The notes under the pieces are model-generated. The model saw only the letters and a list, made by a program, of their open reading frames with translations, had not been told where the DNA came from and ran no database searches. Position numbers and translations under genes: made by a program. This document shows positions 10,864 through 31,755 of a stretch of DNA of 64,000 nucleotides, in pieces (the stretch's first letter is position 1; each line of letters starts with the position of its first letter). The stretch comes from Cellvibrio sp. KY-YJ-3. Its GTDB lineage: Bacteria; Pseudomonadota; Gammaproteobacteria; Pseudomonadales; Cellvibrionaceae. The stretch is taken from the NCBI RefSeq assembly GCF_008806955.1, contig NZ_CP031727.1, forward strand, positions 1,936,001 to 2,000,000. The letters are read 5' to 3'.

Positions 10864-13800
10864 TCAGAGTTTGGTAATGCGCAACCAGTTAATACTCCAG
10901 CCACCTTGCTGTGCATAAATACCAACATTGAATGTTCCCGCGTTGATATTCACTGTGTGGCTGATGGTGGTGAAGTTGCCCCAATCACCGGTTGCTGGAA
11001 TCGCAGCGCTGCCCAATACAATCGAGCCGCCATTCAAATCCAGCGATAACATTCCACCGCTGGGGCTGGCAACGCGGTACTCCACTAAATAACTGCCGGA
11101 TGATGGAAAGTTGATATTGGTAAACGCCATCCAATCGCCACTATCAATCGCGCCCACCACTTGCCCGCCGCCAACATCAGTGGTGGGAAATAATTCCAGG
11201 CCAGACATAAACGCAAAACTTTCTGCCTCAATAAACTGACTAAAGCTGGCAACCGAACTGCTGCTGGATGAGCTGCTTGCCGGTGTACTGGATGCACCGC
11301 CGCCACTCATCACCAGTTCAACCCATGCAGTATCGATGGCGCCAATGTCCTGCGCGATAGTCATAAAGTAGCGAACCGTTGCACCCGCGGGAATGCCCGT
11401 TAATTCATAAAAATTTGAATTATCGCTGCTGTGTGTCATGCGGAAATTTTGTTGCGGCCCACCATTCACCGTGAAATGAATATCCGCCCAGGCAGCGTTG
11501 TTGGCAAAAAAGCGCAGGCTGTCACCACTCAAAACTGTGTGACCATATTGATTGTTATTGGCTGCACTCGAACCCTGCGCGCTGCTCGATGACATTGCAC
11601 TTGAGCTTGCAATGGCACTCGATGTTGTCGCTGATGTTGCTGCAGAAGTTGCAACCGAGGTTGCCACCGAGCTGCTGGCTTTTGATGAGGTCACACTGTT
11701 AGTCACCGAGCTTGCCACACTGCTGTTGCTGCTCCCGGTTGCCGGTGTACAACTGGTTGAGGTGGGCAATGCATCAGGCGTTTCACCGGTGCGTTTTATG
11801 CGAAAACTATTTGCCGGAACATTCAGTGTCATCCCATCGGAAAAACGCACGTACTGTGGGCTGCAACCAAAGTTGTAGGCGATGTAAGTCAGCAAACCAT
11901 TTTTATTAAACGCAACGGCGCTGGGGCTGGACGCGGTTAAGGCACCAGTGCCTGTGGCTAAATGACCGAGTTGTTTGAGTGTGTGCACCCAGTGATAAGT
12001 GTGTGCTTTGGTTTCGCCCGCTTCGGGTGTGTAATTAAAATTGTAGGCGAGCATATCTTCCACGGCGGCTTCGCCATTGCTCATCGCCCAAATATTCCAC
12101 CAGACATCGCGCCACTGATCATCAATTAAACCCGAGGGTTTGCCATTGCTGGATTGGCTCAAACCTAATTCAACGTAGTTATCCAAATAATCTGCATGTT
12201 GGCCAATGTGAAATACCAATGGGCTTAGGGGCAAACCTTGAATACCTAAAATGTGTGCGTAAGCACCGCTAAACCAGGTGGAAAATACATGGCCATTGCC
12301 CCAAATAATGGAGGTGGTCATTTTGGGGTAGGCGGAATCGAAGTTGTCGTAGTCGCCACCTAAACCACGGAAGCGATCAATGTTATTCCAGTATTCCCAA
12401 TAGGCAGCGGTGGACGATGCGTGCAAATACATACCGCGATCTGTGATGGCTTTATTGCGTGTGATTTGTCCGTAAAGCACCATCGCGCCATAAGCATTCG
12501 CCGCTTCCGAGGTGGATTCGTTATTGTTGCCCAAGACAAAATTCGCATGGCCCGATGCCCAGGAAAAACCATTGGCGGGGTCAAAATTGCGCAAGTAGGG
12601 AAACAAATTGTCGTCGCGGGCGGCCGCGTAATCGCGAATTAATAATTCCACCATTGGCCCGTATTGGGTTGCACTACACCAGCTGGCTTCCACGCGACAA
12701 ATTTCTGCAGCAGCGCGCACAAAATAGCCGTAGTGAAAATGGTGATCGTTTAATTGCTGTTGTGAACCGAAGGATTCGTCAAAACCAAGCAGCGTGTTCC
12801 AGTTGCTGTCGTAGGCAAAATATTTGGTGGTGTCCAAACTGCCGTTGGTATTTGCACGGAACCAATCTTCCAATTCGGCTTTCAGCCACGCAATTAATTG
12901 ATCGGCTTCCACCGTCATACCAATTGAACGCGCAATTGCAGCGAGTTCAGCAACTTTTCCGTAATTTTTTCCTGCCCAATAGGTATCGGTAAAAGTGTTC
13001 CAACTGGCGGGATCCTGACTAATAAATTCATTCACTAATTGGCGTAAACGGGTTTCATCGTAGTCGCCAATATTTTCCGGCAAGTAGGGCAGCACACCCA
13101 CAAACGGAATGGTGTAACTGAAATTTTTAGTCGCCGCAAACTTGGTAACGCCGCGTGCACTGCGTACTTTATAAGGTGTAAATGCTTGTTGCGTTGCATT
13201 TTTCCAGGCCATGGGCAGCAGGCCCGCCATAGTCGTTACCGGCGCGCCATTAAATTGATAAGTGTGAGTGACAGTCACTTTATTGCTGTTGCGATTAACT
13301 GCGTAGGTGATGTTGACCTTGTCCACCCGCTGGGTCGCGTGTTGGGCGAAATCCTGAATCATCGCGGTGGAAGGCATGCCGGATATTTGCGGAAGCAAGG
13401 TCACTGTCATGCGTTTACTGGCATTGTTCACACCAATCGTTGCGGTATTCGGGTTGCTGAAACTGGTGGCGTCGTGACCGGTAATTAAAAAATTATTGTG
13501 ATTACCCGCAACGTTCGTCCATACCCCCAAGCTATTTCCCGCTTGATAAAACACTCCCTTTTCGCCGCCGTCGCCCGCTTTGGTGCGCAGTTGTAAATTA
13601 CCTTTTAACGCCGTGAAATAAGCGTAAGGCGAGCCGTGTACAAAGGTGGCTTCCATTACCGCCGTGCCCGCACTTTGCCACTGCACGGTCACCGAACCAT
13701 CGCTATAGTCTTTTAAATAAGCTTCAAGGTTGCTGTAATCGCTGTTACCAACGGCGATACCATCAAACACTTCATTAAATGGATCGGGAATGGAATATTG

Positions 13801-14271
13801 CGTCGCGGTTGGATTGGTGCGCAACCCGCCGGGTATTCCCAAAATACGCACGCCGCGATCGGTAATGCGTGCGGTCATTGGGTCTGGTGTGATGTAGCCA
13901 GCGCCGTTGGGATCGCCCACTTTCATCTCGCCCATAAATGAAATAGAGCCCCACCAGCGATGGGTCATGGTGTGTTTATCGGCAGCCGGTGAAACCAGTT
14001 GCGGGTAAATCGGGGTGGGCGAGCCAATCGGGTTGCAGCTACTCACGCCGGGTTTTACCAGCCCGGCGTTGTAAATCCAGTAGCCATAATCGGTTGCGCA
14101 TTTATACCCGGCGGGGTTTGGACCATTAGCAATATTGCCCGCACCGTAGGGCGTTACATTGGCAAATGCACTCGGGGCAAGGGCGATGGGAGAAAGCGCG
14201 ATAGAGGTAAAGGCAAGGGGCGCGATCACACCAGCCCCCCACGCACGTAGGGTTTGTCGTAACTGTTTCAT
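10864..14271 (-). CDS. Secreted GH81 endo-beta-1,3-glucanase (laminarinase) with CBM56-like and CBM6 modules
   Basis: Starting at the ATG behind AGGAAATAAC (14271), the protein has 1135 residues. A signal peptide (about 1-37) is followed by a GH81 domain to about 830, with the catalytic region NDHHFHYGYFVRAA (Asp509) and GNNNESTSEAANAYGAM (Glu585, Glu589). A long Ser/Ala/Thr linker (845-905) leads to a beta-1,3-glucan-binding module resembling CBM56 (908-988), then a poly-Ser linker and a C-terminal CBM6 (1010-1135, FIEAESFAFMSG...GDWMAF). It should hydrolyse laminarin or curdlan outside the cell. Poly-Ser linkers are typical of Cellvibrio and Saccharophagus carbohydrases. An in-frame ATG at 14412 lacks a signal and is rejected. 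Confidence 0.93.
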   Translation of the reverse strand: MKQLRQTLRAWGAGVIAPLAFTSIALSPIALAPSAFANVTPYGAGNIANGPNPAGYKCATDYGYWIYNAGLVKPGVSSCNPIGSPTPIYPQLVSPAADKHTMTHRWWGSISFMGEMKVGDPNGAGYITPDPMTARITDRGVRILGIPGGLRTNPTATQYSIPDPFNEVFDGIAVGNSDYSNLEAYLKDYSDGSVTVQWQSAGTAVMEATFVHGSPYAYFTALKGNLQLRTKAGDGGEKGVFYQAGNSLGVWTNVAGNHNNFLITGHDATSFSNPNTATIGVNNASKRMTVTLLPQISGMPSTAMIQDFAQHATQRVDKVNITYAVNRNSNKVTVTHTYQFNGAPVTTMAGLLPMAWKNATQQAFTPYKVRSARGVTKFAATKNFSYTIPFVGVLPYLPENIGDYDETRLRQLVNEFISQDPASWNTFTDTYWAGKNYGKVAELAAIARSIGMTVEADQLIAWLKAELEDWFRANTNGSLDTTKYFAYDSNWNTLLGFDESFGSQQQLNDHHFHYGYFVRAAAEICRVEASWCSATQYGPMVELLIRDYAAARDDNLFPYLRNFDPANGFSWASGHANFVLGNNNESTSEAANAYGAMVLYGQITRNKAITDRGMYLHASSTAAYWEYWNNIDRFRGLGGDYDNFDSAYPKMTTSIIWGNGHVFSTWFSGAYAHILGIQGLPLSPLVFHIGQHADYLDNYVELGLSQSSNGKPSGLIDDQWRDVWWNIWAMSNGEAAVEDMLAYNFNYTPEAGETKAHTYHWVHTLKQLGHLATGTGALTASSPSAVAFNKNGLLTYIAYNFGCSPQYVRFSDGMTLNVPANSFRIKRTGETPDALPTSTSCTPATGSSNSSVASSVTNSVTSSKASSSVATSVATSAATSATTSSAIASSSAMSSSSAQGSSAANNNQYGHTVLSGDSLRFFANNAAWADIHFTVNGGPQQNFRMTHSSDNSNFYELTGIPAGATVRYFMTIAQDIGAIDTAWVELVMSGGGASSTPASSSSSSSSVASFSQFIEAESFAFMSGLELFPTTDVGGGQVVGAIDSGDWMAFTNINFPSSGSYLVEYRVASPSGGMLSLDLNGGSIVLGSAAIPATGDWGNFTTISHTVNINAGTFNVGIYAQQGGWSINWLRITKL

Positions 14272-14455
14272 GTTATTTCCTATTAGATGACCGTAATTAT
14301 TGTTAGAAAATGGTGCCGCTTTTATCCTGACGCGAGCGGTGTCCCAATGTAGGTAGCTGAGCCGATGAAATCGTCCCAAATTGGCGGAGGAATGAAGGTG
14401 GGACGGTTCCACTTTGCGGAAAATGTGGCGGAATTCTGGGACAGGCGCGATGATG

Positions 14456-19588: not shown

Positions 19589-21643
19589 TTAATCGAAGGT
19601 TAATTGTGCTTTTAACCAGTAAGTTCTTCCTGGTTCATTGATGCGGGTGGTTTGGTCGTAACCTGCGATCATGGCGCCTGCTTTGCTGATGTGCTCTGCA
19701 TAAGTTTCATTAAGCAGGTTATCAATACCGGTAGTGAGCAACAGATTTTTGTGCGCGCGCCAGCCAGCGTTAAGCGAGAGCACATTGAAATCTTCGCTTG
19801 CGCCTATGTCTTGTCCTGCGATATTGCCTTTGTTGATATCGACTCGTGTCTGTTCATCCGCAACGCGCCAGAATACACCGGCAGACCAAGTTGGGTTGTT
19901 GTAGTAGAGGCCGAGGCGAAGTTCGATCGGCGGGATTTGTGACAGGTGGGTATTATCTGTTTCGTTAGTGCCGCGCACACTTGCTACCGATGCTTCTGTG
20001 CGCCATGTGTCGGTCAATGCGTAGCTAAGGTCGGCTTCCATTCCCCAAGTTGTTGCATCTACATTGCGGGTGACAGTGGTACTTCTAGTGCTCGTTGGCC
20101 CCGTTGGTTTGTTCACGCGCGATTGGATCAGCAGGTAATTATCAATTTCGTTGTAGAACATAGAGACACTGCTTTTCAGGCGATGCTTGCTGTAAATCGC
20201 ACCTATATCTAACTGGGTTGTTTCTTCCGCTTTAGCGTTGAAGGCACTAATAGAATCCAGCGATTCTTTGCTAATTAATTCCCAGTAGTCGGGAAAACGT
20301 TCGCTGTGGCCAATGCCGGTATAGACCGTAACCCTACGCCAATCTTTTTCGTAGCGTAGAAAGCCGCTGGATAAATTTTCATTGCGTTCTTCGCCTGCAG
20401 TGGGATTGACGTGTTGGGTATTGCCGATCATGCGAGTTGCTGCGCGTTGATCTTCTGCGCTCCAGTCGTCAACGCGTACCCCACCAATTACTCGCTGCTG
20501 CGCTGTTATGGTTTGCGTCCATTCACCAAAGACACCGAGTTGTTGGAAATGCGCATCACCAACGCGCGGCATATCCTGATAGGGCATCATCATTTGGTTT
20601 GAGGTGGAGCGGTTGGTGTGATCGTTCTTCTGGGTATCTGCACCGACTATCAGCTCGGCGGATGAGGTTGGGGTGAAAGTAGCTAGTAGGCGCGCGCCCT
20701 CGGTTTGACGATCGGGGTTGGAGGCCATTTGCATCGTCGTTCCAGTGCGTTCACGCAAAGTGTAATTATCCATCACGTGATCGACATAGTTGTAATAGAC
20801 CTGAGTCTCCAGTTTTTTCCAGAAGGGAGTCAGGTTTTTCACAATCACTTTGGCGCTCAGGTTGTCACGCGCAAATTTTGAGCCGTCCATGCTGCGATCC
20901 GCATAGGCTGCTTCTGCATCGCTTTGGCTGCCGTTGATTTCGATAGTCAGGTCGTCGCTGGGTGTCCAGCCCAAGGCAAGGTTGGTATTCCAGCGGTCGT
21001 ATTGGGAGTGGACTTCGTTACCGTCGCCATCCTGGTAATTATCTTGTTGTGAATGGCTGGCCATTGCGCGGAGATAAAAATCCGGGGTGCCGCCCTGGAG
21101 ATCCATAACTTCATCATTGCGACCAAAACTGCCACCCAAAAGGCTGCTATAGAATTTCCAGCTGGGTTGGGCCATACGCTCCCGGTCGCGTTCAAAAAGA
21201 ACGACACCGGCAGAGTTACCGGGGCCATGAATAACGGTTTGCGGCCCTTTGACCAAGCGAATACGGTCATAAGTTTCCGGGAATACATATGCAGTGGGCG
21301 GATCCATGCGGCTACCGCAGCCGCCCAATACCAGATCACCATCTAATAATAGCGACAGTCGCGATCCGGCCATTCCGCGAAATACCGGATCGCCGCTGGT
21401 TCCGCCTTTGCGGATTACGGAAAAGCCTGGAATTGTTTTAAGGTAATCCGCCCCATCTTGCGCGGGTAGTGGTTGTCTTGGCGCTTTGGGGTCGGTCTCG
21501 ATGGTGAGTGGAGTTTCAGTTTTTACGCCAGTGATGACCATTTCTTCAGGCTTGGATTCATCCTTCGTGTCGGTATCGCCGTAAACAGTCGGGGCAAGCA
21601 ATGTGCAAATAGCCAGACTAATCAGGCGGGATTTACTAGTCAT
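19589..21643 (-). CDS. TonB-dependent outer-membrane copper receptor (OprC/NosA type)
   Basis: The 684-residue protein has a signal peptide (cleavage near VYG|DTD), a short TonB-box-like segment EEMVITG, and a plug domain with the OprC/NosA signature: DGADYLKTIPGFSVIRKGG, GDPVFRGMAGSRLSLLLDG, LGGCGSRMDPPTAYVFPE and LVKGPQTVIHGPGNSAG. The Cys and Met in GGCGSRMD correspond to the region that binds copper in this family. The rest is a 22-strand barrel ending in aromatic ...LKAQLTFD. NosA supports copper supply to nitrous oxide reductase and OprC imports copper. It is divergent from an ABC operon with two copper proteins. Confidence 0.92.
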   Translation of the reverse strand: MTSKSRLISLAICTLLAPTVYGDTDTKDESKPEEMVITGVKTETPLTIETDPKAPRQPLPAQDGADYLKTIPGFSVIRKGGTSGDPVFRGMAGSRLSLLLDGDLVLGGCGSRMDPPTAYVFPETYDRIRLVKGPQTVIHGPGNSAGVVLFERDRERMAQPSWKFYSSLLGGSFGRNDEVMDLQGGTPDFYLRAMASHSQQDNYQDGDGNEVHSQYDRWNTNLALGWTPSDDLTIEINGSQSDAEAAYADRSMDGSKFARDNLSAKVIVKNLTPFWKKLETQVYYNYVDHVMDNYTLRERTGTTMQMASNPDRQTEGARLLATFTPTSSAELIVGADTQKNDHTNRSTSNQMMMPYQDMPRVGDAHFQQLGVFGEWTQTITAQQRVIGGVRVDDWSAEDQRAATRMIGNTQHVNPTAGEERNENLSSGFLRYEKDWRRVTVYTGIGHSERFPDYWELISKESLDSISAFNAKAEETTQLDIGAIYSKHRLKSSVSMFYNEIDNYLLIQSRVNKPTGPTSTRSTTVTRNVDATTWGMEADLSYALTDTWRTEASVASVRGTNETDNTHLSQIPPIELRLGLYYNNPTWSAGVFWRVADEQTRVDINKGNIAGQDIGASEDFNVLSLNAGWRAHKNLLLTTGIDNLLNETYAEHISKAGAMIAGYDQTTRINEPGRTYWLKAQLTFD

Positions 21644-21783
21644 AGTGTTCTCGGTCTTATTTATTAGTTGATTGAGAGAATGGAAAGTGAGCGGCGTTAT
21701 AGAGGATGTCCCAGGCTTGCCACAATGCGCGCCCTATAGATTTTGGCTATGAACTATTGGGAGTGAGGTGGGGGAGGATCGAT

Positions 21784-21813
21784 TTTTGGGGGCGACAATT
21801 TGCATCCCCAAAA
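21784..21813. promoter_or_regulatory. Dyad between the copper receptor and the ABC operon
   Basis: TTTTGGGG and CCCCAAAA form a perfect 8-base inverted repeat around a 14-base spacer in the 279-base divergent region. It lies 110 bases upstream of the lipoprotein start. It is a reasonable operator for joint control of both transcripts; it does not match CueR or FNR sites that I know. Confidence 0.45.
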
Positions 21814-21922
21814 TACGATAGGCTTTATCTATGGTAATTCTGTAGATTGTGCGGAGCCGATCATCAATACTCGCGCGGCACATTTTGTTGATTGGCATGA
21901 CACTACCTTAAAAAGGCATCAA

Positions 21923-22954
21923 ATGAACACCCACGACCCTCTATCTACGTTTTCCCAGCAGCGCCGAAAGCTATTATTAGGCATGACTGCCGCGACCCTC
22001 CCTTTAGGTGTTGCGTCCTGCTCGCGCACCGAAGATAGCAATCTACTGGTGGTGGGTGGATTACCTGTTACCTGCAATCTGACCTTACCCATTGCCTGTG
22101 TTGGTAAGGCGGCGGCGGGTACAGGGGGCGTGGGGTTCCAGTACAGCAAATACAGTGGCTGGCCAGAGATCAAAGAGTCGCTTATGACCGGGCGCATTCA
22201 GGCGGCCTATATGTTGGCGCCTCTGGTGATGGATCTCACCACCAAAAAAATACCACTTAAGATTATTTCCCTCGGGCATAGATCCGGCGCCGTGATAATG
22301 GTGCGCACGGATTCTGACTACAAAACCTTCAGCCAATTGAAAGGTAAACGCATCGCAATCCCAAGCCGTTTTGCGGTGGACTTTTTATTCCTGCGCAAGA
22401 TGCTCGCGCAGGAAAACATGACGCATACCGACATTGAAATTGTAGAAATGCCACCGCCGGATATGCCCGCCGCACTCTACGCCAACGCGGTGGATGCTTA
22501 CTGTACCGGCGAGCCATTTGGTGCCGCCGCACAAAAGGCGGGTTATGCGCGCCCTTTACGCATGACCCGCGATGAATGGCGCAATTACATCTGCTGTGTG
22601 CTGACGGTGCGTGAAGAATTAATTCAGGAGCAACCGGAAGTAGTACAGGATTTGGTTAACCACGTGATGGGGGCGGGTGCATGGTTGGATCAGAATATGG
22701 TGAATCGCGAGAAGGCCGTGCAGATCGCCGCCGGGCGCCAGTTCTTTAATCAGGACCCGAATATTATTCGCTTCGTGATGGAAAATCCTGAAGATCGTGT
22801 GACCTATGGTGATATGCGTATGATCAAGGACGAATTCAATGAGCTGATGGAATTGTCCATTGCTGCAGGAACCCTGACTAGTCCCGTTGCGTATGAAAGC
22901 TATGTTGATGAAACCTTTGTTCGCAATGCTAAACCTGTTGCCATTACAGTTTAA
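21923..22954 (+). CDS. NrtA/SsuA-like substrate-binding lipoprotein of a copper-linked ABC system
   Basis: Start at ATG 21923 (after AAAAGGCATCAA) gives 343 residues. The N terminus RRKLLLGMTAATLPLGVASC combines a twin-Arg-like motif and a lipobox with Cys33. The mature part is a type II periplasmic binding fold of the NrtA/SsuA/TauA class: LVVGGLPVTCNLTLPIACVG, GWPEIKESLMTGRIQAAYMLAP, FSQLKGKRIAIPSRFAVDF and AVDAYCTGEPFG. Cysteines at 51 and 59 and the MPPPDMP stretch are unusual for nitrate or sulfonate binders and could coordinate metal, though this is inference. First gene of a five-gene operon with SCO, cupredoxin, permease and ATPase genes. Confidence 0.85.
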   Translation: MNTHDPLSTFSQQRRKLLLGMTAATLPLGVASCSRTEDSNLLVVGGLPVTCNLTLPIACVGKAAAGTGGVGFQYSKYSGWPEIKESLMTGRIQAAYMLAPLVMDLTTKKIPLKIISLGHRSGAVIMVRTDSDYKTFSQLKGKRIAIPSRFAVDFLFLRKMLAQENMTHTDIEIVEMPPPDMPAALYANAVDAYCTGEPFGAAAQKAGYARPLRMTRDEWRNYICCVLTVREELIQEQPEVVQDLVNHVMGAGAWLDQNMVNREKAVQIAAGRQFFNQDPNIIRFVMENPEDRVTYGDMRMIKDEFNELMELSIAAGTLTSPVAYESYVDETFVRNAKPVAITV

Positions 22955-22966
22955 TAGCAGGATCTG

Positions 22967-23602
22967 ATGATGATTCGATTGATAATGGTGTTTGCGTTTT
23001 GCATAAGTGTTGTAGGAAATGTTGCGGCAGAAAATGTTGCAACAGAAAGCACTGCAACAAAAAGTACTGCATTGAAATCCGGCGTGTTTGATCCACCGCG
23101 CATGGCTCCGGATTTTTCCCTGCCCAGCTCCCGTGACAACCAATTCACGCTGAGCGAACAGCGTGGCAAACTTCTGGTATTGGGTTTTGGTTTTACCAAT
23201 TGCCCTAATGTCTGCCCCATGACACTCGCTAATCTTGCGCAGGTCTTTAAAAATCTTGGTGCGTTAGCTGGGCAAGTACAAGTGGTTTATATGACTGTCG
23301 ATCCTGAGCGCGATACTCCGGCGCGCTTGCGTGAATATTTAACCAATTTCAATTCGCATTTTGTTGGTGTCACCGGTTCTGCCGATGAGTTGGCGGCTGT
23401 GCGCCAGGCTTATGGCATCATCGCGAAAAAAGAAGTGCACAAAAATGGCGGAAATTATGAAGTGCACCACTCTTCGTATATTTATTTGATTGATCGCGAC
23501 GGTTTATTGCGCGCGCTGGTGCCGTTTGGAAAAAGTGCAGACGACATAACCCACGACATCAAAATATTGTTGCAAGAAAAAACGCAACAGGCTGCGTTAT
23601 GA
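22967..23602 (+). CDS. SCO1/SenC family copper chaperone / thiol-disulfide protein
   Basis: The 211-residue product has a signal peptide (cleavage near VAA|EN), a thioredoxin fold starting at APDFSLPSSRDNQFTLSEQ, and the SCO copper site: TNCPNVCPMT (Cys79 and Cys83, CxxxC) plus His167 in YEVHHSSYIYLID. VDPERDTPARL is also typical. SCO proteins deliver copper to CuA centres or keep thiols reduced in the periplasm. It lies 12 bases after the lipoprotein gene, has an AGGATCTG ribosome site before ATG ATG, and overlaps the cupredoxin gene by 4 bases (ATGA), so co-translation is likely. Confidence 0.92.
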   Translation: MMIRLIMVFAFCISVVGNVAAENVATESTATKSTALKSGVFDPPRMAPDFSLPSSRDNQFTLSEQRGKLLVLGFGFTNCPNVCPMTLANLAQVFKNLGALAGQVQVVYMTVDPERDTPARLREYLTNFNSHFVGVTGSADELAAVRQAYGIIAKKEVHKNGGNYEVHHSSYIYLIDRDGLLRALVPFGKSADDITHDIKILLQEKTQQAAL

Positions 23603-24024
23603 AAGTAAGTGTTGGTTATGCCCGGTTGCTGTCGGCTGTAATTTTCGTGGTGAGTACCGCGGCCTTACTGCTTGCCTTTTATCCCCTTCGTTTTGATTCC
23701 CGTGAAGAAGTATTTGAAATTCCCAAGGGTACTTGGGCGCAGCGTATGGCGGGTAATCCGGTCAGCATTCTACCTGACCAGATTTACTTGGCGCTGGGCG
23801 TGCGCGATCTATTAGTGTTGCGCAATCTGGATGATGTGCCGCAAATGTTTGGGCCGACACTGATTATGCCCGGTCAAAGTTTCAAATTGCCGTTTGAACT
23901 GGCTTCTGAGTATGAATTTGCCTGCACTGCCCATGCGAGCGGGCAAATGATCGTAGTAGTTGACCCTGAGCCCACGGCGGGGTGGAATCGTTTGCTGTGG
24001 CGAGTTAAAAATGTGTTTCGTTAG
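23599..24024 (+). CDS. Membrane-anchored cupredoxin-like protein
   Basis: This 141-residue protein has one N-terminal membrane helix (residues 8-29) and a cupredoxin-like barrel. The C-terminal copper loop is FACTAHASGQM: Cys109, His112 and Met117 in the C-x2-H-x4-M spacing of type 1 or related centres. The upstream ligand, usually a His near the middle strand, seems replaced: the equivalent stretch reads DDVPQMFGP, with Met83 as the nearest candidate. It probably passes copper or electrons on the outer face of the inner membrane. It is coupled to the SCO gene by a 4-base overlap. Confidence 0.78.
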   Translation: MKVSVGYARLLSAVIFVVSTAALLLAFYPLRFDSREEVFEIPKGTWAQRMAGNPVSILPDQIYLALGVRDLLVLRNLDDVPQMFGPTLIMPGQSFKLPFELASEYEFACTAHASGQMIVVVDPEPTAGWNRLLWRVKNVFR

Positions 24025-24060
24025 TCGTTGTAAAATTTCAAATAACAAAAGGTAGTTTCT

Positions 24061-24819
24061 GTGATAAAACTCAAAAAAATATTACCGCCGCTAGCGCTAA
24101 TCACGGTGCTAATTGCGGTTTGGTGGATTGTGGTGGTGCAAACTAAAAGCGTGATTTTCCCCACTCCGTTGCAAGTAGTGACTGGTGCAATGGAGTTGAT
24201 TGAAGATGGCACGTTATGGGAGCACATCAGCTCGTCATTAATGCGCGTAGGTACTGGTTTTTTACTGGCGGTACTTATTGCGATCCCGCTGGGCCTATGG
24301 ATGGGGCGTGTCGATAGTGCTTACGCCACGTTAAATCCGGTCTTTCAAATTATGCGGCCCATTTCACCAATCGCCTGGATTCCACTGGCGATTCTCTGGT
24401 TTGGAGTAGGCAATGCATCGCCGATTTTCTTAATTTTTATTGCTGCGGTATTTCCGTTGATTGTGCAAACCGCGGCAGGCGTTCATACCATTGAACCGCG
24501 TTACTTAAATGCGGCCGAAAACTTTGGTGTGTCGCGTTACAAGCTGTATCGGCAAGTAGTCATTCCGGCGGTACTGCCCGATTTAATCGTGGGCATGCGC
24601 ATTTCTTTGGGTGTTGCCTGGTTGGTAGTGGTGGCGGCAGAAATGATTGCCCTACGCTCCGGCCTTGGCTACATGATTATGGATTCACGTAATGCGGGTA
24701 ATCGCTATGATTTGGTGATTGCAGGTATGATTATTATTGGCGTCATCGGACTTTTGTTGGACGGCTTGATGCGACTAATGGAAGGACATAAATCAGTAAG
24801 GTGGCGTTATGACCGATAA
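24061..24819 (+). CDS. ABC transporter permease, NrtB/SsuC/TauC class
   Basis: The 252-residue protein starts with GTG at 24061 after AAAGGTAGTTTCT. It has six membrane segments and the BPD-transport EAA loop: AAENFGVSRYKLYRQVVIPA. IRPISPIAWIPLAILWFG-like sequence (MRPISPIAWIPLAILWFGVG) is typical for permeases of nitrate, sulfonate and taurine importers. It pairs with the downstream ATPase, whose gene it overlaps by 11 bases. Substrate not determined by sequence; the operon context points to copper or a copper-related compound. Confidence 0.9.
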   Translation: MIKLKKILPPLALITVLIAVWWIVVVQTKSVIFPTPLQVVTGAMELIEDGTLWEHISSSLMRVGTGFLLAVLIAIPLGLWMGRVDSAYATLNPVFQIMRPISPIAWIPLAILWFGVGNASPIFLIFIAAVFPLIVQTAAGVHTIEPRYLNAAENFGVSRYKLYRQVVIPAVLPDLIVGMRISLGVAWLVVVAAEMIALRSGLGYMIMDSRNAGNRYDLVIAGMIIIGVIGLLLDGLMRLMEGHKSVRWRYDR

Positions 24820-25552
24820 GATTGTTATTCAAAATATTAAAAAAAGTTTTTCCTCCGGCAGCGAATCAAAATCAGTAATTGACGGTATCAATCTCACAAT
24901 TGCTGATGGGGAATTTATTGCGATTGTCGGCCCATCTGGCTGCGGTAAATCCACACTGATGAAAATGATCGCCGGTTTTTTACAGCCGGATGAAGGCAGT
25001 ATCGCGGTTGATGGCGTAGAGCGCAAAGGCCCCAATGCCAACGGTATTTTGATTTCCCAACACGGCTCGGTATTCCCTTGGTTAACCGTGCAGCAAAATT
25101 TGATGTTTGGTTTAAATGATGAACATGTCGACAAAACGGCGGTTGCTGACCACTATGCGGATTTGGTGGGTTTAAAAGGCTTTGAGCAACACTATCCGCG
25201 TGAGTTGTCGGGCGGTATGTTAAAGCGTGCAGAAATTGCGCGCGCGCTCGCAGTTAAACCGGAAATCCTGTATATGGATGAGCCTTTTTCTGCACTGGAT
25301 GCATTAATGAGCTTGCGTATTCGCACTGAGTTATTGCGAATTTTGGAGGAGGAGCGACACACCGTTATATTGATTACCCACGACGTGGAAGAAGCCGTTC
25401 ATTTGGCTAATCGTGTAGTGGTGTTATCAAACCGTCCGGCAACCATCCAAACAATTTTTGATGTACCTTTTGCACACCCGCGCAAATTATCTGACCCCGC
25501 TTTACAACAATTGCGCGACGATATTTTGCGTGAACTGGGCATTGAGTGTTAG
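24809..25552 (+). CDS. ABC transporter ATPase, NrtD/SsuB/TauB class
   Basis: The 247-residue ATPase has Walker A GPSGCGKST (residues 41-49), Q-loop ILISQHGSVFPWLTV, a signature LSGGMLKRAEIARAL in which the usual Gln is Met, Walker B ILYMDEPFSALD and the switch histidine in LITHDVEEAV. It energises the preceding permease. Last gene of the operon, followed by a bidirectional terminator. Confidence 0.92.
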   Translation: MTDKIVIQNIKKSFSSGSESKSVIDGINLTIADGEFIAIVGPSGCGKSTLMKMIAGFLQPDEGSIAVDGVERKGPNANGILISQHGSVFPWLTVQQNLMFGLNDEHVDKTAVADHYADLVGLKGFEQHYPRELSGGMLKRAEIARALAVKPEILYMDEPFSALDALMSLRIRTELLRILEEERHTVILITHDVEEAVHLANRVVVLSNRPATIQTIFDVPFAHPRKLSDPALQQLRDDILRELGIEC

Positions 25553-25605: not shown

Positions 25606-26517
25606 TCACCCCCGCGCCAAAGACCTGATAGCAATTGCTGCGGCCGACGTCCTGTTTTCCACACCTAATTTTTTAAATATCTGCTCCAAATGTTTGTTCA
25701 CTGTGCGTGGGCTCATTTCTAAAATCTGGCCGATTTCGCGATTGGTTTTTCCGTTGGCGATCCACAATAATACATCGGCTTCGCGGCCGGTTACGGCGAA
25801 TTGTTGTTTGAGGGATTGGGTGTCGTCGGCGGGTTTGTGGGCGGGCGTTAAACGCAGCAAATATTCTTTACCGTCAATCAGGTTGAGCATTTCTACCGAT
25901 AACTCGGTGCTTAGTTGCTGCAATAATAATTGCCGCCCCGTTTCGGGTTTGTGGCTAATCCAGTCGCGCAGTTGCTGGGTTATCGATGGTGTGAGTGCAA
26001 TGGAGTCCTGGGTTGCGCCGGAATTATCGAGTAATTGATAGACCTGCGGTGTGGCCCACACTAAATTTCCCAGGGCATTAATAGTTAATAGATATTGACC
26101 GGCGGTATCCAGTGCGGCGCGTGCACTTTGGGTGATGCGTGCATTGGCTAAATGCACTTGCATGCGTGCAATTAATTCGTCGGCTTTAATTGGCTTGGTA
26201 ATGTAGTCCACACCGCCTGCGCCCAAACCCATCACAATATGTTCAGTATCACTTAGCCCTGTCATAAAAATAATGGGCACATCGGCCAGCTGCGGGTTTT
26301 GTTTCAGACGTTTGCAGGTTTCAAAACCATCCATGTTGGGCATTATGGCATCGAGCAAAATAATATCCGGGCGAATATTTTGGGTGATGGTCAGTGCTTG
26401 GGTGCCTTCCAACGCTACGAGCACGGTAAATTTTGCATCCTCCAATACATCGTTCAGCATGTGAATGCTATCGATGGAGTCATCAACCACGAGTACCACA
26501 TTGCTATTGCTGATCAT
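25606..26517 (-). CDS. LuxR/NarL-type response regulator of the NCS1-fused sensor kinase
   Basis: The 303-residue protein has an N-terminal receiver domain (VVLVVDDS, phospho-acceptor Asp56 in IILLDAIMPNMDG, and the Lys in DYITKPIKADE), a middle stretch resembling a PAS-like sensor (residues about 150-225), and a C-terminal LuxR helix-turn-helix (TGREADVLLWIANGKTNREI, RTVNKHLEQIFKKLGV). It is 12 bases downstream of the hybrid kinase gene on the same strand and should be its output. It faces the urea transporter operon across the kinase gene, and probably controls it. Confidence 0.9.
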   Translation of the reverse strand: MISNSNVVLVVDDSIDSIHMLNDVLEDAKFTVLVALEGTQALTITQNIRPDIILLDAIMPNMDGFETCKRLKQNPQLADVPIIFMTGLSDTEHIVMGLGAGGVDYITKPIKADELIARMQVHLANARITQSARAALDTAGQYLLTINALGNLVWATPQVYQLLDNSGATQDSIALTPSITQQLRDWISHKPETGRQLLLQQLSTELSVEMLNLIDGKEYLLRLTPAHKPADDTQSLKQQFAVTGREADVLLWIANGKTNREIGQILEMSPRTVNKHLEQIFKKLGVENRTSAAAIAIRSLARG

Positions 26518-26529
26518 TTTGGTCTCCGT

Positions 26530-29500
26530 TTAGTGAGTGGGTTCGTGTGCGCAGTAATCATCAATCAGTTCAATCACTTTTTCGAACTGGAAGTTAGCGC
26601 TGAGTTGTTGTAATTCTTGTAACCATTGGGTGTCATCGCCATTACTTGCCAGCTGTTGTAGTTGCGCAATGGCTTCGAGCAGGCCCTTTTTATGACCTAT
26701 GGCTGCCAGATTTTTTAGTTGCTGCAGTGTGTTGTTGTTAGCTAAATTTTTTATCTGGCCATCAGGCGATTCTGTTTTGTCACTGACAATAATATTGTTT
26801 GGGCTTTTATTTTTCTCTTTGGTTGTGTGTAGTGTGTTTGTGTGCGACCTGTTTGTTTGTGGTGTAGATGCGGAAGCTGTATTTTCATAACACCAGGTTA
26901 GTTTTAATAAATTGCCGATATGATCCAGCAGCAGCGGCAAACGTACGGGTTTAATGACATAGGCATTGTGCAGCGCGTGCTCTGGTGCATCGCTATGGTT
27001 TTTGCCTTCGCTGGCATCTGCTGAGACCATGATGATCGGCCCGTGAAATAGCTGCGCGCGCAATTGTTCCGCCAGTTGCCAGCCGCTCATCTCCGGCATA
27101 GAGACATCCAGCATAATTAACTCCGGTGGAGTACCTTGCGCTATTTCGTACTGCAAACGCGGCACAACTTCCAAAGGGTTATCCATATCGATAATTTCAA
27201 AACCCAACGGGCTGAGCATGGCGCGCATCAATTGACGATGGCTCGCGTCGTCATCCACCAATAACAAGCGACGCACCGGGCCGCGATAGCCATAAATAGT
27301 TTGCACCGGCGCGGTAATGGATTCGCGCTGCGGGTTGGTAATACTCGCGAGCATTAAACTGGCTTTAAATTGGCTGCCCTCACCGAGCTTACTGCTCACG
27401 GCAATATCGCCACCCATAATTTCACACAATAACCGCGTAATGGTTAAACCCAGCCCTGTTCCCGTAGCGGTAGAGCCGGGGCGATGCACACGTTCAAAGG
27501 GGCGGAAAATGCGTTCAATATTTTCGGTGGCGATTCCTTCACCAGTATCGGTAACGGTAAATTCCGCAACCTGACTGCGAAAGCGCAATTTAAAAATGAT
27601 CTTGCCCTTATTGGTGTATTTCACCGCGTTAGATAACAAATTAATTAAAATTTGCCGCAGGCGTTTTTCATCGGTGCGCACTAACTCCGGCAGACGATCC
27701 TTGCATTCGTAAATAAATTCCAACCCTTTTGCCTCAGCTTGCAAGCGGAACATATGTACCAGTTGTTCAATGAGTAATGACAAGCGCACTTGATCTTGAT
27801 GTAAATCCAAACGGCCCGCTTCAATTTTGGATAGATCCAGCAGCCCTTCAATTAAATCGGCTAGATGTTCGCCACTGCGACGGATTACACCGAGCGCATC
27901 TTTGCGGCCGGCGGGAATATCGCTGGCTTTTTCCAACAGCTGCGCATAACCCAACACCGCATTCAGTGGTGAGCGCAATTCGTGGCTGATGCCGGTTAAG
28001 TAACGACTTTTGGCCAGGTTGGCAGCTTCGGCTTGTTCTTTGGCGGTTTGCAATGCGCGGTCGGTGCGTTCGTGGGCTTCAATTTCTTCCATCAATAACC
28101 GTGTTTGCCGTTGTGATTCCTCTTGCGCCACCACGCGGCTCTCGTGAGCTAATACAAACAGCCAGCTCACCACACCGGTAATAATCACCAGCAGAAAAAA
28201 TACTTTCCACAGTGTGGCTTCCAACAGTGCTGCAGTTTCCGGCGCGTCTATCGGGGTTTGAAAATAAATAAGCGATAATAAAATTGCTGACAGGCCATTA
28301 ATCACCGCCACCAAAATAATAAAATGTCCAACCCGTGAATTGATATTGGCGCTAATGGATGCCGGTAAAAAACGGGTAAAAAAATTGCTCAGCTGATGGG
28401 TATAGTTCGCCTCGGGTTTGCAATAGTCATTGCAGCGTGCATCCAGCGAACAACAGAGTGAGCAGATATCACCCGCGTAGGCAGGGCAGTAGGTCATATC
28501 TTCATATTCAAATTTGTGTTCGCAAATACAGCAGGAGACGGTCGCATTTTTTTGCGGCTCATAATAACGGTACTCAGGCGAATTTATTCCGGTAACTGGC
28601 CGCGCGAGGTAATAGCGCCCACGCGTGGCAAGGGCAATTAGCGGCGCACAGATTAAGGCCAAACCCAAAGCGATAAAATGCGATAGCGCTTGTGCAATAT
28701 CACCCAGCACTCCGGCGTGACAGACTATGCCCATCACTGAGGCGATGAGCATGGAGCCAACACCGACTGGATTGATGTCGTACAGGTGAGCGCGTTTAAA
28801 TTCGATATGTTTCGGGCTGAGGCCGAGCGGTTTATTAATGACTAAATCGGCCACCAGCGAACCTAACCAGGCCACAGCGACTATGCCGTAAAAACCGAGC
28901 GTTTGTTCCAGTGCGCGGTAAACCCCCAGCTCCATTAATAACAGCGCAATCGCCACATTAAATACTAACCACACTACGCGGCCGGGGTGGCTATGGGTTA
29001 AGCGGGAGAAAAAGTTTGACCAGGCAATCGAACCGGCGTAAGCGTTAGTCACATTAATTTTTAACTGACTTAAAATGACAAAAATTCCTGCTACCGACAG
29101 CGCAACCTCCGGGGAACTGGTGATATAGGTAAACGCCACCATATACATGCGGGTTGGGTCGGCGGCTTCTTCCATACCGATGCCGTGATTTAATGCCAGC
29201 ACCGCCAGGAATGAACCCGCCAAAATTTTTATTGCGCCAATCACAATCCAACCCGGCCCACCGGCAATTAATGCTACCCACCAGCGCCAACGTGTTGCGG
29301 GTTTTGGCTCGGGTAAAAAACGCAAAAAATCCACCTGTTCACCAATTTGTGCAATCAGCGAAAAAATAACGGCAGAAGCTGCACCAAACAGTAAAACGTT
29401 TACTCCTGCCGTTGCCCCATTATTTTCATTGGGTAAACCGCCGGAAAATTCAGTCCAACTTTCCACCGCGCTAGCATCGGCATAAATAATAAAAACAAAG

Positions 29501-30066
29501 GGCAGGAGTTGCAGAATTAACCACAGCGGCTGGGTCCATAATTGGAAGCGACTTATAAAAGTAATGCCGTGGGTGACTAGCGGAATAATCACCACCGAGC
29601 TAATCAAATAACCCCAGGCCAGGGGAATGCCAAATAACAAGTCTAACGCCATGGCCATAATGGCCGCTTCCAACGCGAAAAAAATAAAAGTAAACGAGGC
29701 GTAAATTAGCGAGGTAATGGTGGAGCCAATATAACCAAAGCCAGCGCCACGGGTGAGCAAATCTATATCTACACCGTATTTTGCGGCGTAGTAGCTAATA
29801 GGAATTGCGGTGAGAAAAATAATCGCGCTTACCGCAAGAATGGCTGCAACGGCGTTATTAAAACCGTAGTGCAAGGTAATCGCACCACCTATTGCTTCCA
29901 GCGCGAGAAACGAAATCGCCCCTAATGCAGTCGTGGCTACACGGGCCGCAGACCAGCGTCGCGCACTTTTGGCGGTAAAACGCAGCGCGTAGTCTTCCAG
30001 TGTTTGGTTGGCCACCCACTGGTTGTAATTGCGGCGCACGCGAAATATATGTTGTTTGGCGGTCAT
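26530..30066 (-). CDS. Hybrid histidine kinase fused to an NCS1 permease-like domain and a Cys-rich module
   Basis: The 1178-residue protein begins with an NCS1 purine/cytosine permease-like domain (residues about 1-490, twelve membrane segments, e.g. YGVDIDLLTRGAGFGYIGST). A Cys-rich stretch (512-549, nine cysteines, with CCIC, CSLCC and CNDYC) follows, then two more membrane helices (about 580-640), a coiled-coil linker, HisKA with His695 in GISHELRSPLNAV, HATPase with TDTGEGIA and GTGLGLTI, and a receiver with Asp987 in LIMLDVSMPEMSG. The last 120 residues are low-complexity and helical, without an Hpt motif. The design recalls CbrA and MxtR, where a sodium-solute symporter is joined to a kinase. 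It likely senses a small nitrogen compound such as urea or an amide. Confidence 0.9.
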   Translation of the reverse strand: MTAKQHIFRVRRNYNQWVANQTLEDYALRFTAKSARRWSAARVATTALGAISFLALEAIGGAITLHYGFNNAVAAILAVSAIIFLTAIPISYYAAKYGVDIDLLTRGAGFGYIGSTITSLIYASFTFIFFALEAAIMAMALDLLFGIPLAWGYLISSVVIIPLVTHGITFISRFQLWTQPLWLILQLLPFVFIIYADASAVESWTEFSGGLPNENNGATAGVNVLLFGAASAVIFSLIAQIGEQVDFLRFLPEPKPATRWRWWVALIAGGPGWIVIGAIKILAGSFLAVLALNHGIGMEEAADPTRMYMVAFTYITSSPEVALSVAGIFVILSQLKINVTNAYAGSIAWSNFFSRLTHSHPGRVVWLVFNVAIALLLMELGVYRALEQTLGFYGIVAVAWLGSLVADLVINKPLGLSPKHIEFKRAHLYDINPVGVGSMLIASVMGIVCHAGVLGDIAQALSHFIALGLALICAPLIALATRGRYYLARPVTGINSPEYRYYEPQKNATVSCCICEHKFEYEDMTYCPAYAGDICSLCCSLDARCNDYCKPEANYTHQLSNFFTRFLPASISANINSRVGHFIILVAVINGLSAILLSLIYFQTPIDAPETAALLEATLWKVFFLLVIITGVVSWLFVLAHESRVVAQEESQRQTRLLMEEIEAHERTDRALQTAKEQAEAANLAKSRYLTGISHELRSPLNAVLGYAQLLEKASDIPAGRKDALGVIRRSGEHLADLIEGLLDLSKIEAGRLDLHQDQVRLSLLIEQLVHMFRLQAEAKGLEFIYECKDRLPELVRTDEKRLRQILINLLSNAVKYTNKGKIIFKLRFRSQVAEFTVTDTGEGIATENIERIFRPFERVHRPGSTATGTGLGLTITRLLCEIMGGDIAVSSKLGEGSQFKASLMLASITNPQRESITAPVQTIYGYRGPVRRLLLVDDDASHRQLMRAMLSPLGFEIIDMDNPLEVVPRLQYEIAQGTPPELIMLDVSMPEMSGWQLAEQLRAQLFHGPIIMVSADASEGKNHSDAPEHALHNAYVIKPVRLPLLLDHIGNLLKLTWCYENTASASTPQTNRSHTNTLHTTKEKNKSPNNIIVSDKTESPDGQIKNLANNNTLQQLKNLAAIGHKKGLLEAIAQLQQLASNGDDTQWLQELQQLSANFQFEKVIELIDDYCAHEPTH

Positions 30067-30507
30067 AGTTTACCCGTTAAACAATTTGTTCGTCCGGGAA
30101 CAAAGCGCTGGTGAATGAAATACTCGGGTTATTGGCTGCTGTCATTTATCGCTGCATTATTTTCATGCGCACCACTGCAATGGTGATCGCTTGTGGTGCG
30201 TTTACTGTTGTTTTTATTGTCTTCTGTGACTCGTTGAACTTTTTATCCCCGCTTTGCTGTTGTCCTTCAATTGCTGTACCAACTTTAACGATTGGCTATG
30301 CGTCAAATGACGTAGCGGCCTGTGTCATTTATCGAATGGTGATACCCCCTCCCCAGACTTACATTGAGCCACGTAGAGATTGCTCCCGCTTCAGGGCAAT
30401 GTCTCGGTGGTAAATACGCGCTCAGTGGACTCACGCTACAAACATCAACAAAACGTTTTTTATGCATTTGTGTGACCAGACAATGTTTAATTACCTGAGG
30501 AACGACC
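30067..30507. other. Divergent region between the sensor kinase and urtA
   Basis: No gene was found in these 441 bases. It contains the dyad at 30296-30334 described separately. A stretch with CACG and TTGC (30371-30383) looks at first like sigma-54 but has the wrong spacing. An open frame at 30111-30413 is not supported by a ribosome site. Confidence 0.6.
30296..30334. promoter_or_regulatory. Dyad operator upstream of urtA (copy A)
   Basis: CTATGCGTCAAATGACGTAG begins a motif whose halves CGTCAAAT (30301-30308) and ATTTATCG (30327-30334) are near inverted repeats separated by 18 bases. The same arrangement with the same spacing lies upstream of fmdA at 37512-37550, with 17 of the first 20 bases identical. 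The match and the shared spacing argue for a binding site of one regulator. Confidence 0.65.
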
Positions 30508-31755
30508 ATGAACAAGACCATACAACCCTCTGCGCTGGTTAAGGGCGCAGGTTCAAAAACCTGGAAGAAGTGTTTATTAACACTCGCGGCCTCGCTGGCA
30601 TTTGGCAGTGTTCACGCCGAGGTAAATACCACGGGCCTTGCAGTGACCGATACCACAGTAAAAGTCGGTATTTTGCATTCAGTAACCGGCACCATGGCGA
30701 TTAGTGAAACGGGTTCGGTGCAAGCGGAAAAATTGGCAATTGAACAAATCAATGCGATGGGCGGTGTGCTCGGTCGCAAGATTGAATACATTCAGGAAGA
30801 TGGTGCCAGCGACTGGCCCACCTTTGCAGAGAAATCCAAAAAATTATTGGTGAACGATAAAGTAGCCGCAGTATTTGGTTGTTGGACTTCCGCATCGCGC
30901 AAAGCAGTATTGCCGATTTTTGAACAATACAACGGCATGTTGTATTACCCCACCTTTTATGAAGGTTTGGAGCAATCGCCCAACGTTATTTATACCGGGC
31001 AAGAAGCAACCCAACAAATTATTGCCGGTATCGATTGGGTAACCAAAACCAAAGGCGCCAAATCATTCTACTTGCTCGGTTCAGATTATATTTGGCCGCG
31101 CACCTCCAACAAAATTGCCCGCAAACATATTGAAAAATTAGGCTTGAGTGTAGTGGGTGAAGAGTATTACCCATTGGGTCACACCCAATTCAACTCGGTC
31201 ATTAACAAAATCAAACTGAAAAAACCTGACGTGATTTACGCAATTGTTGTGGGTGGTTCTAACGTGGCCTTCTACAAACAATTAAAAGCGGCGGGTATTG
31301 ATATGACCAAAGAAAAACCGCTGGTATTAACCATTTCAGTGACTGAGGACGAAATTCTCGGTATTGGTGGTGACAACATGCAAGGCGCTTATGCGGCGAT
31401 GAAATATTTCCAAAGCTTGCCGAACGACAACAACAAAAAATTCGTAGCGGATTTCAAAGCTATGTGGGGCAAAGACACAGTAATCGGCGATGTGACCCAA
31501 GCGGCTTACCTTGGCCCCTGGTTGTGGAAAGCGGCGGTGGAAAAGGCCGGTTCGTTTGATATCGATAAAGTGCGCGCGGCATCGCCGGGTATTGAGTTGA
31601 CCACTGCACCGGAAGGTTATGTAAAAGTTCACCCCAATCATCACCTTTGGTCAAAAACCCGTATCGGTCACGCACGTCCTGATGGTCAATACGATGTGGT
31701 ATTTGAAACCACCGACCTGATCGAGCCGGATCCATTCCCGAAAGGTTATCAATAA
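30508..31755 (+). CDS. urtA: Urea ABC transporter substrate-binding protein
   Basis: The 415-residue protein has a long signal peptide (cleavage near VHA|EVN) and the type I binding fold of UrtA/FmdD: VKVGILHSVTGTMAISETGS, EYIQEDGASDWPTFAEKS, VFGCWTSASRKAVLPIFEQ, LYYPTFYEGLEQSPNVIYTG. The conserved C-terminal TAPEGYVKVHPNHHLWSKT confirms it. It binds urea, or short-chain amides in the FmdD variant, in the periplasm. Ribosome site TGAGGAACGACC precedes the ATG. First gene of urtABCDE; separated from urtB by 208 bases containing two inverted repeats, which could let urtA mRNA accumulate above the rest. Confidence 0.95.
   Translation: MNKTIQPSALVKGAGSKTWKKCLLTLAASLAFGSVHAEVNTTGLAVTDTTVKVGILHSVTGTMAISETGSVQAEKLAIEQINAMGGVLGRKIEYIQEDGASDWPTFAEKSKKLLVNDKVAAVFGCWTSASRKAVLPIFEQYNGMLYYPTFYEGLEQSPNVIYTGQEATQQIIAGIDWVTKTKGAKSFYLLGSDYIWPRTSNKIARKHIEKLGLSVVGEEYYPLGHTQFNSVINKIKLKKPDVIYAIVVGGSNVAFYKQLKAAGIDMTKEKPLVLTISVTEDEILGIGGDNMQGAYAAMKYFQSLPNDNNKKFVADFKAMWGKDTVIGDVTQAAYLGPWLWKAAVEKAGSFDIDKVRAASPGIELTTAPEGYVKVHPNHHLWSKTRIGHARPDGQYDVVFETTDLIEPDPFPKGYQ

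Follow-up and report, generated by a model that had tools for sequence, protein, structure and literature searches.

A conserved five-gene operon joining an NrtA-like ABC transporter to SCO and cupredoxin genes, a candidate copper importer in Cellvibrio and other bacteria

Little is known of how copper passes through the inner membrane of bacteria, and a locus of Cellvibrio sp. KY-YJ-3 (genome of 4.49 Mb, single contig) raises the question of whether an ATP-binding cassette (ABC) transporter resembling importers of nitrate and sulfonates might perform this step. In the stretch of 64,000 nucleotides analysed here (hereafter the window; NZ_CP031727.1, positions 1,936,001 to 2,000,000), a TonB-dependent receptor gene of the OprC/NosA type lies divergent from an operon encoding a substrate-binding protein (SBP), an SCO protein, a cupredoxin, a permease and an ATPase. 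The initial annotation had interpreted all six genes as one route for copper, or a copper-binding small molecule, from the outer membrane through periplasmic carriers to an inner-membrane importer. Our analyses retain the inner-membrane part of that interpretation and not the receptor as a general component. The five-gene operon is a real, conserved unit, and we favour, with moderate confidence, the view that it encodes an ABC-type copper importer, with Cu(I) as the likeliest form carried or else a small copper complex, together with periplasmic proteins dedicated to loading it. We prefer import of copper or of a copper complex because the operon is conserved as a unit and the proteins it adds to the transporter are copper proteins; the substrate is deduced accordingly. 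The genes concerned, in window positions, are as follows.

21923..22954, + strand: SBP, NMT1_2/NrtA-like (PF13379, PF09084), with a twin-arginine leader and a lipobox-like VASC
22967..23602, + strand: SCO1/SenC protein (PF02630, 141.1 bits), with CxxxC (C79, C83) and H168
23599..24024, + strand: membrane-anchored single-domain cupredoxin, recognized from a structure model, with C109, H112 and M117
24061..24819, + strand: ABC permease, NitT/TauT type (BPD_transp_1, PF00528)
24809..25552, + strand: ABC ATPase (ABC_tran, PF00005)
19589..21643, - strand: OprC/NosA-type TonB-dependent copper receptor (TIGR01778), a divergent neighbour outside the conserved operon

All six genes lie where they had first been placed, as do the overlaps of 4 bases between SCO and cupredoxin genes (23599-23602) and of 11 bases between permease and ATPase genes (24809-24819). 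Among related loci that have both genes, 66 of 67 offer a start codon permitting the longer overlap; one permitting the shorter is present in 44 of 76. The reading frame of the SBP opens at a TTG at 21800, from which its residues are numbered here, and its likely start is the ATG at 21923. The two arginines of its leader are kept in at least 95% of relatives, as judged by eye; the description of the SBP as a lipoprotein suits the window protein, which has the lipoprotein cysteine, and does not extend to some relatives, L063 and L069 among them, whose leaders, also read by eye, lack it.

A contig profile scan with a four-sequence SBP alignment recovered 285 relatives, from which the best 80 loci were kept and their gene order determined by phmmer against the window proteins. 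These loci (SBP identity 55-97%) belong to Cellvibrio, Steroidobacter, Duganella/Massilia, Roseateles, sphingomonads, Acidobacteriota and others. Sufficient downstream sequence, set at 2.7 kb or more 3' of the SBP gene, was available in 68 of them, and 61 of these 68 carry SBP, SCO, cupredoxin, permease and ATPase in that order on one strand, which bears out the operon as a conserved unit. It recurs nearly unchanged in distantly related bacteria of soil and water. The seven exceptions comprise five Acidobacteriota loci, considered below, L132, where no cupredoxin was found and the SBP frame is also broken, and L071, whose SCO matches of 70 and 79 bits miss the 90-bit threshold applied for calling that gene.

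Across the genome samples searched, the operon is patchy. Within the order, an ortholog occurs in one of 145 genomes, that of the window itself, the remaining matches having E values of 5.4e-30 or weaker; in the family-level sample it occurs in two of 61 (G000 and G537; a third match is only 28% identical), and in the phylum-level sample one of 398 genomes gives a match better than E 1e-50. Of 369 class-level genomes, two gave a cupredoxin match, one of them weak (E 3.2e-4) and interrupted by stops. In the SBP tree the nearest named relatives of the window protein are from Cellvibrio, and the five Acidobacteriota SBPs form one clade with support 100/99. Viral contigs scanned for SBP relatives yielded none. 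The plasmid search returned 40 records, the 20 listed having 24-27% identity; on a Ruminococcus albus plasmid (L191:4998-10118), a distant SBP with permease and ATPase adjoins cooS, encoding CO dehydrogenase.

The two proteins that set this operon apart had been taken for copper proteins, an assignment that our analyses uphold. The SCO protein carries a PF02630 domain with CxxxC and the distal His of the SCO1/SenC family, and C79, C83 and H168 are present in all 80 aligned rows. The cupredoxin, which has no Pfam or NCBIfam match, was modelled with high confidence (pLDDT 95.4) as a domain preceded by an N-terminal helix (residues 5-27). Searching with this model gave 41 PDB matches at E <=0.001, cupredoxins first, including copper-loaded Cupredoxin_1, amicyanin and the copper chaperone CupA; the scores are modest (best E 4.3e-5, TM 0.65 by target), and the predicted structure thus places the protein within the cupredoxin fold. 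C109, H112 and M90 are conserved in 79 of 79 sequences and M117 in 66 of 79. At the position of the usual first copper His there is Gln in 73, His in five and Ala in one, so that the set His-Cys-His-Met of type 1 copper proteins is incomplete and the site resembles a modified type 1 site.

A first alternative is a periplasmic assembly function, in which SBP, SCO and cupredoxin metallate a cuproprotein, for example the CuA site of an oxidase, while the ABC unit provides something different, in a manner loosely like NosDFY. NosDFY acts in NosZ maturation. We consider this alternative unlikely. It draws on the literature, in which SCO and PCuAC have been linked to CuA loading (PMC3603459, PMC12914433, in the parts consulted), and on the five Acidobacteriota loci (L122, L123, L126, L127, L128), which keep SBP, SCO and cupredoxin together with a small CxxCH protein, found by eye 3' of the cupredoxin in 5/5 (that of L123 has no Pfam or NCBIfam match), followed in all five by a Cupredoxin_1 gene, while related permease-ATPase-permease units lie elsewhere in the same organisms. 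Against it, the ABC genes follow directly in the 61 loci of conserved order, NosZ is infrequent in the genomes searched, and a separate SCO gene of the window genome sits in a cox cluster alongside CtaG/Cox11, COX3, COX15-CtaA and a UbiA-type gene; the operon SCO is hence an additional copy. In G537 (L051) the operon SCO is the sole SCO found at E 1e-10, and the cox-cluster SCO of its relatives may be missing there.

The permease-ATPase-permease units of Acidobacteriota belong to a paralogous system in which a second binding protein, SBP2, follows (L144-L148, L159-L164) and in which we observed the motif PVTC[HQ]L[TA]CPVTD. Ten SBP2 loci were recovered (L144-L146, L148, L159-L164), with two permeases in eight and one in L163 and L164. 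A protein with an HMA domain, its leader identified by eye, is encoded 3' of SBP2 in three of the ten (L146, L159, L160), and another follows the second permease of L147, a locus whose contig ends without an SBP2 having been found. Against a Pfam cut-off of 24.8, only the HMA protein of L160 passes (25.8), those of L159 and L146 scoring 21.9 and 20.5 and that of L147 giving no match; the L160 protein resembles MerP and CopZ.

The SBP itself offers a candidate metal site. Its model (pLDDT 86.9) matches the Staphylococcus aureus protein 3un6 best, followed by NrtA, a CmpABCD domain and SsuA. 3un6 is the nearest by sequence and by fold (E 1.2e-27, TM 0.92 by target, rmsd 2.0); the two share a CC motif, and the structure, by its title, was solved with zinc, but 3un6 has His where the window SBP has Cys92. 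Every one of the 79 rows with a residue at the C92 position has Cys; C100 is kept in 76 of 80, C235 in 80 of 82, and C265, C266, H160 and M217 in 82 of 82. We contrasted 35 operon SBPs with 43 distant relatives and seven SBP2 sequences. At the C92 position the distant relatives have Asp in 32 of 43 and Cys in five, and SBP2 has Cys in 7/7, with Asp at C100, Ser at C265 and Cys at C266, likewise 7/7 each. C92 is the strongest candidate for a soft-metal ligand specific to the clade, because it is Cys in all operon SBPs with a residue there and mostly Asp in distant relatives; it may line the pocket. The CC motif was rejected as a copper-specific mark, since 18 of the 43 distant SBPs carry it.

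Some relatives of the SBP, assessed by eye, occur in other settings; we took these to employ the fold for other purposes and excluded them. In L052, L053 and L054 distant relatives adjoin an apparent methyl-accepting chemotaxis protein and no ABC genes were seen next to them, an arrangement suggestive of solute sensing. In L055 (2670-6266) a relative lies directly 5' of an apparent sensor kinase with a receiver domain; 18 of the 24 matching genomes belong to the same family (f246).

By family, the transporter is an importer of the NitT/TauT type, with a PF13379/PF09084 SBP, a PF00528 permease and a PF00005 ATPase in one operon. It shares SBP fold and family (PF13379) and the permease and ATPase families with NrtABCD, CmpABCD, SsuABC and TauABC, but differs in the added SCO and cupredoxin and in Cys92. 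It falls short of the cut-offs that define substrate classes (SsuA, NtrB, NtrCD, TauA/TauC; 118.3 of 163.5, 153 of 209.05 and 208.3 of 291.8 bits, and lower). This kinship gives rise to a second alternative, that the ABC unit imports a small anion or organic nutrient and that SCO and cupredoxin are a redox pair which keeps the SBP cysteines reduced or moves electrons for an unseen reaction. SCO proteins are thioredoxin-like, and the operon SCO also matches PF00578 and Thioredoxin_8; the SBP cysteines are conserved, and the characterised relatives are NrtA, CmpA, SsuA and TauA. We nevertheless judge nutrient import to be rather improbable, since the SCO copper ligands are invariant, a PCuAC copper chaperone gene accompanies two of the operons, and no catabolic or assimilation gene recurs among the 127 neighbouring genes scanned, as judged from the 25 commonest families of each scan.

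The neighbourhood was surveyed by family scans of 127 genes, comprising 45 co-directional and 26 divergent upstream genes and 56 downstream genes, the tallies covering the 25 commonest families of each scan (of 68, 60 and 69, respectively). The upstream gene is co-directional in 48 of 74 loci and divergent in 26. Of the 48, L080, L123 and L131 were omitted for gaps of 1.6-2.7 kb and L135 (1.9 kb) was retained; downstream, 56 of 63 genes were scanned, omitting L083 (contig end), L097 (ATPase piece) and the five Acidobacteriota. Co-directional families were MsrA (6), glutamate dehydrogenase (5), EAL (5), response regulator (5) and BrkB (4), the others shown being single, one of them a TonB-dependent receptor. 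Divergent ones were TonB-dependent receptor (2) and TPR (2), the others being single and including PCuAC and tyrosinase. Downstream, alpha/beta hydrolase (5) and GST (3) were followed by families seen once or twice, among them one DctP and one Peripla_BP_4. Neighbours indicating nitrate or sulfonate use had been named at the outset as evidence that would tell against copper; in the families shown, neither such a pattern nor another catabolic or assimilation pattern recurs, and a conserved metabolic neighbour was accordingly rejected.

Genes for copper proteins occur at a few loci. A PCuAC gene lies within the operon of L134 (114.8 bits, cut-off 29.4), a second, divergent PCuAC gene is adjacent to the operon in L125 (9310-9762; 107.5 bits), and a divergent tyrosinase gene in L093 (8076-9449; 108.2 bits). 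We count these genes, with the second cupredoxin of the five Acidobacteriota and the HMA proteins of three SBP2 loci, among the evidence for copper. The PCuAC of L125 moved our assessment of copper import from evenly balanced to slightly favourable. In Oxalobacteraceae loci (L084, L087, L089, L095, L103, L110 and others) we observed MsrA upstream of the operon and, by eye in clusters of seven loci, MsrB-like and DsbD-like genes as well; such thiol and methionine repair genes next to a copper system may have significance or simply reflect synteny.

A third alternative is that the substrate is another soft metal or an organometal, such as mercury, silver or organometallic compounds, in a transporter related to SAO, the Sec-assisted organometallic system whose SaoB and SaoX are selenoproteins in the account consulted (PMC13188914). 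The best NCBIfam model for the permease is SaoP (189.5 bits, cut-off 295), SaoA ranks second for the ATPase (202.4 of 360) and SaoX second for the SBP (53.5 of 300). The ABC subunits are related, and CCVLT of the window SBP resembles in motif the CUxxT of SaoB (PMC13188914, as excerpted); the resemblance of the L160 HMA protein to MerP points the same way. Yet all three scores lie under their curated cut-offs, which places the operon outside SAO, and SCO, cupredoxin and PCuAC are copper proteins, so that we regard this alternative as very unlikely. The Sao scores and the cooS-adjacent R. albus relative hint, though weakly, at metal handling in this branch of the NitT/TauT transporters.

The claim that no characterised system has this composition agrees with our literature search, in which, by title and the start of the abstract, no such operon was found, a result that is no proof of absence from print. 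In the parts consulted, three papers apply terms such as 'copper ABC transporter' to Nos genes (PMC5359404, PMC13024080, PMC7784907), one to CtaA (PMC3487460) and two to an unspecified component (PMC5987163, PMC4295147). NosDFY resembles the present system as an ABC unit tied to copper proteins, but is encoded with nosZ. A Pseudomonas aeruginosa island is described with two cupredoxins, a copper ABC ATPase, CopZ, CopA and CopB (PMC5695207, as excerpted). In the consulted portion of a 2020 review, the MFS carrier CcoA is the prototype of inner-membrane copper import, and ABC transporters figure as importers only in a suggestion concerning copper-yersiniabactin (PMC7558416). CcoA/CalT shares the proposed role, copper across the inner membrane, but is an MFS carrier without binding protein or ATPase. 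In CrtA operons, the gene for a TonB copper transporter is grouped with copper chaperone genes, which in a few cases include SCO and PCuAC, as far as the source was consulted (PMC12914433); CrtA differs as an outer-membrane protein, and the main text of that paper does not contain 'ABC transporter'.

The receptor remained to be placed. It scores 729.2 bits against TIGR01778 (TonB-dependent copper receptor; cut-off 472.45) and E 2.1e-182 against the P. aeruginosa OprC structure 6fok. The copper ligands of OprC are given as the CxxxM and HxM residues C143, M147, H323 and M325 (PMC8610252, as excerpted), and alignment places GGCGSRM (C109, M113) and DHVMD (H289, M291) there; by its sequence, the divergent gene is thus a true member of the OprC/NosA family that keeps both ligand motifs. 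As a partner of the operon, it is not conserved. By tblastn across whole loci, 66 of which have at least 2.4 kb upstream and so room to reveal it, the receptor accompanies the operon in one of 80 loci (L058, 94.9% identical); that gene is one of the two divergent TonB-dependent receptors counted above, the other not being OprC-related. The operon lacks it as a neighbour in Cellvibrio L057, in L056 (1.28 kb upstream present) and in G537 of the same genus, and the divergent neighbour is moeA-like in G537 (by eye) and in L059 (Pfam).

In whole genomes, the receptor family exceeds its cut-off in two of 50 operon-bearing genomes, drawn from 50 of the 80 loci, and in one of four genomes of the window's genus. 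NosZ, counted with TIGR04244, one of the NosZ models, exceeds its cut-off in five of the 48 operon-bearing genomes, out of 50 searched, and in none of the four of the genus. Co-occurrence with OprC/NosA receptors and nos genes, which had been suggested as a check, is infrequent for both; the receptor as an obligate partner and, on that one model, a NosZ link were rejected, and a single route from OprC to the operon does not hold as a general system. OprC may feed the operon in this strain, by chance or as a local link and not as a rule.

For copper import, these results suggest the following course. Copper would enter the periplasm, perhaps through OprC in this strain and by other routes elsewhere; SCO and the membrane-anchored cupredoxin would bind it there and may pass it to the NrtA-like SBP at a soft, Cys-containing site, the direction of hand-over and the site geometry being presumed; permease and ATPase would then move it into the cytoplasm, probably for cuproenzyme assembly under copper scarcity, the physiological role we propose. 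Gene order and its conservation, the identities of SCO and cupredoxin, the ABC family and the SBP fold are the established ground for this scheme.

Several results weigh against it. The nearest characterised relatives of the SBP bind nitrate, bicarbonate or sulfonates; C265 and C266 are unspecific, given CC in the distant SBPs, and C235 is replaced by Ala in two of 82. The cupredoxin is without the usual first His in 74 of 79 sequences, the five Acidobacteriota loci keep SBP, SCO and cupredoxin with neither permease nor ATPase beside them, and seven of ten SBP2 loci are without an HMA protein. Most neighbours of the operon are unrelated to copper, and strict FNR, CueR-like, CsoR, Fur and CRP patterns are absent from 76 upstream regions, in a weak test. 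A shared upstream motif was likewise rejected on these few strict patterns and on 8-mers in the 76 loci, and the whole window contains no Rfam RNA at gathering thresholds.

On balance, the operon probably serves copper uptake, as a system of a type apparently undescribed. More tentatively, at somewhat less than even probability, it may represent a family of ATP-driven importers of copper itself, with an NrtA-fold SBP whose Cys site receives copper from SCO and cupredoxin, a route distinct from CcoA and metallophore uptake, and with a paralogous Acidobacteriota branch that partly uses an exported HMA chaperone. If it imports copper, the operon would provide another inner-membrane route for the metal, link SCO hand-over to import, and correct the names of nitrate, sulfonate or taurine transporters, to which these genes score nearest.

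Elsewhere in the window (25606-31755), genes for a LuxR-type response regulator and for a hybrid histidine kinase, whose long transporter-like membrane region matches no Pfam family, are divergent from an apparent urea (urt) ABC operon beginning at 30508, and a GH81 glycoside hydrolase with CBM6, CBM56 and CBM35 modules is encoded at 10864-14412.

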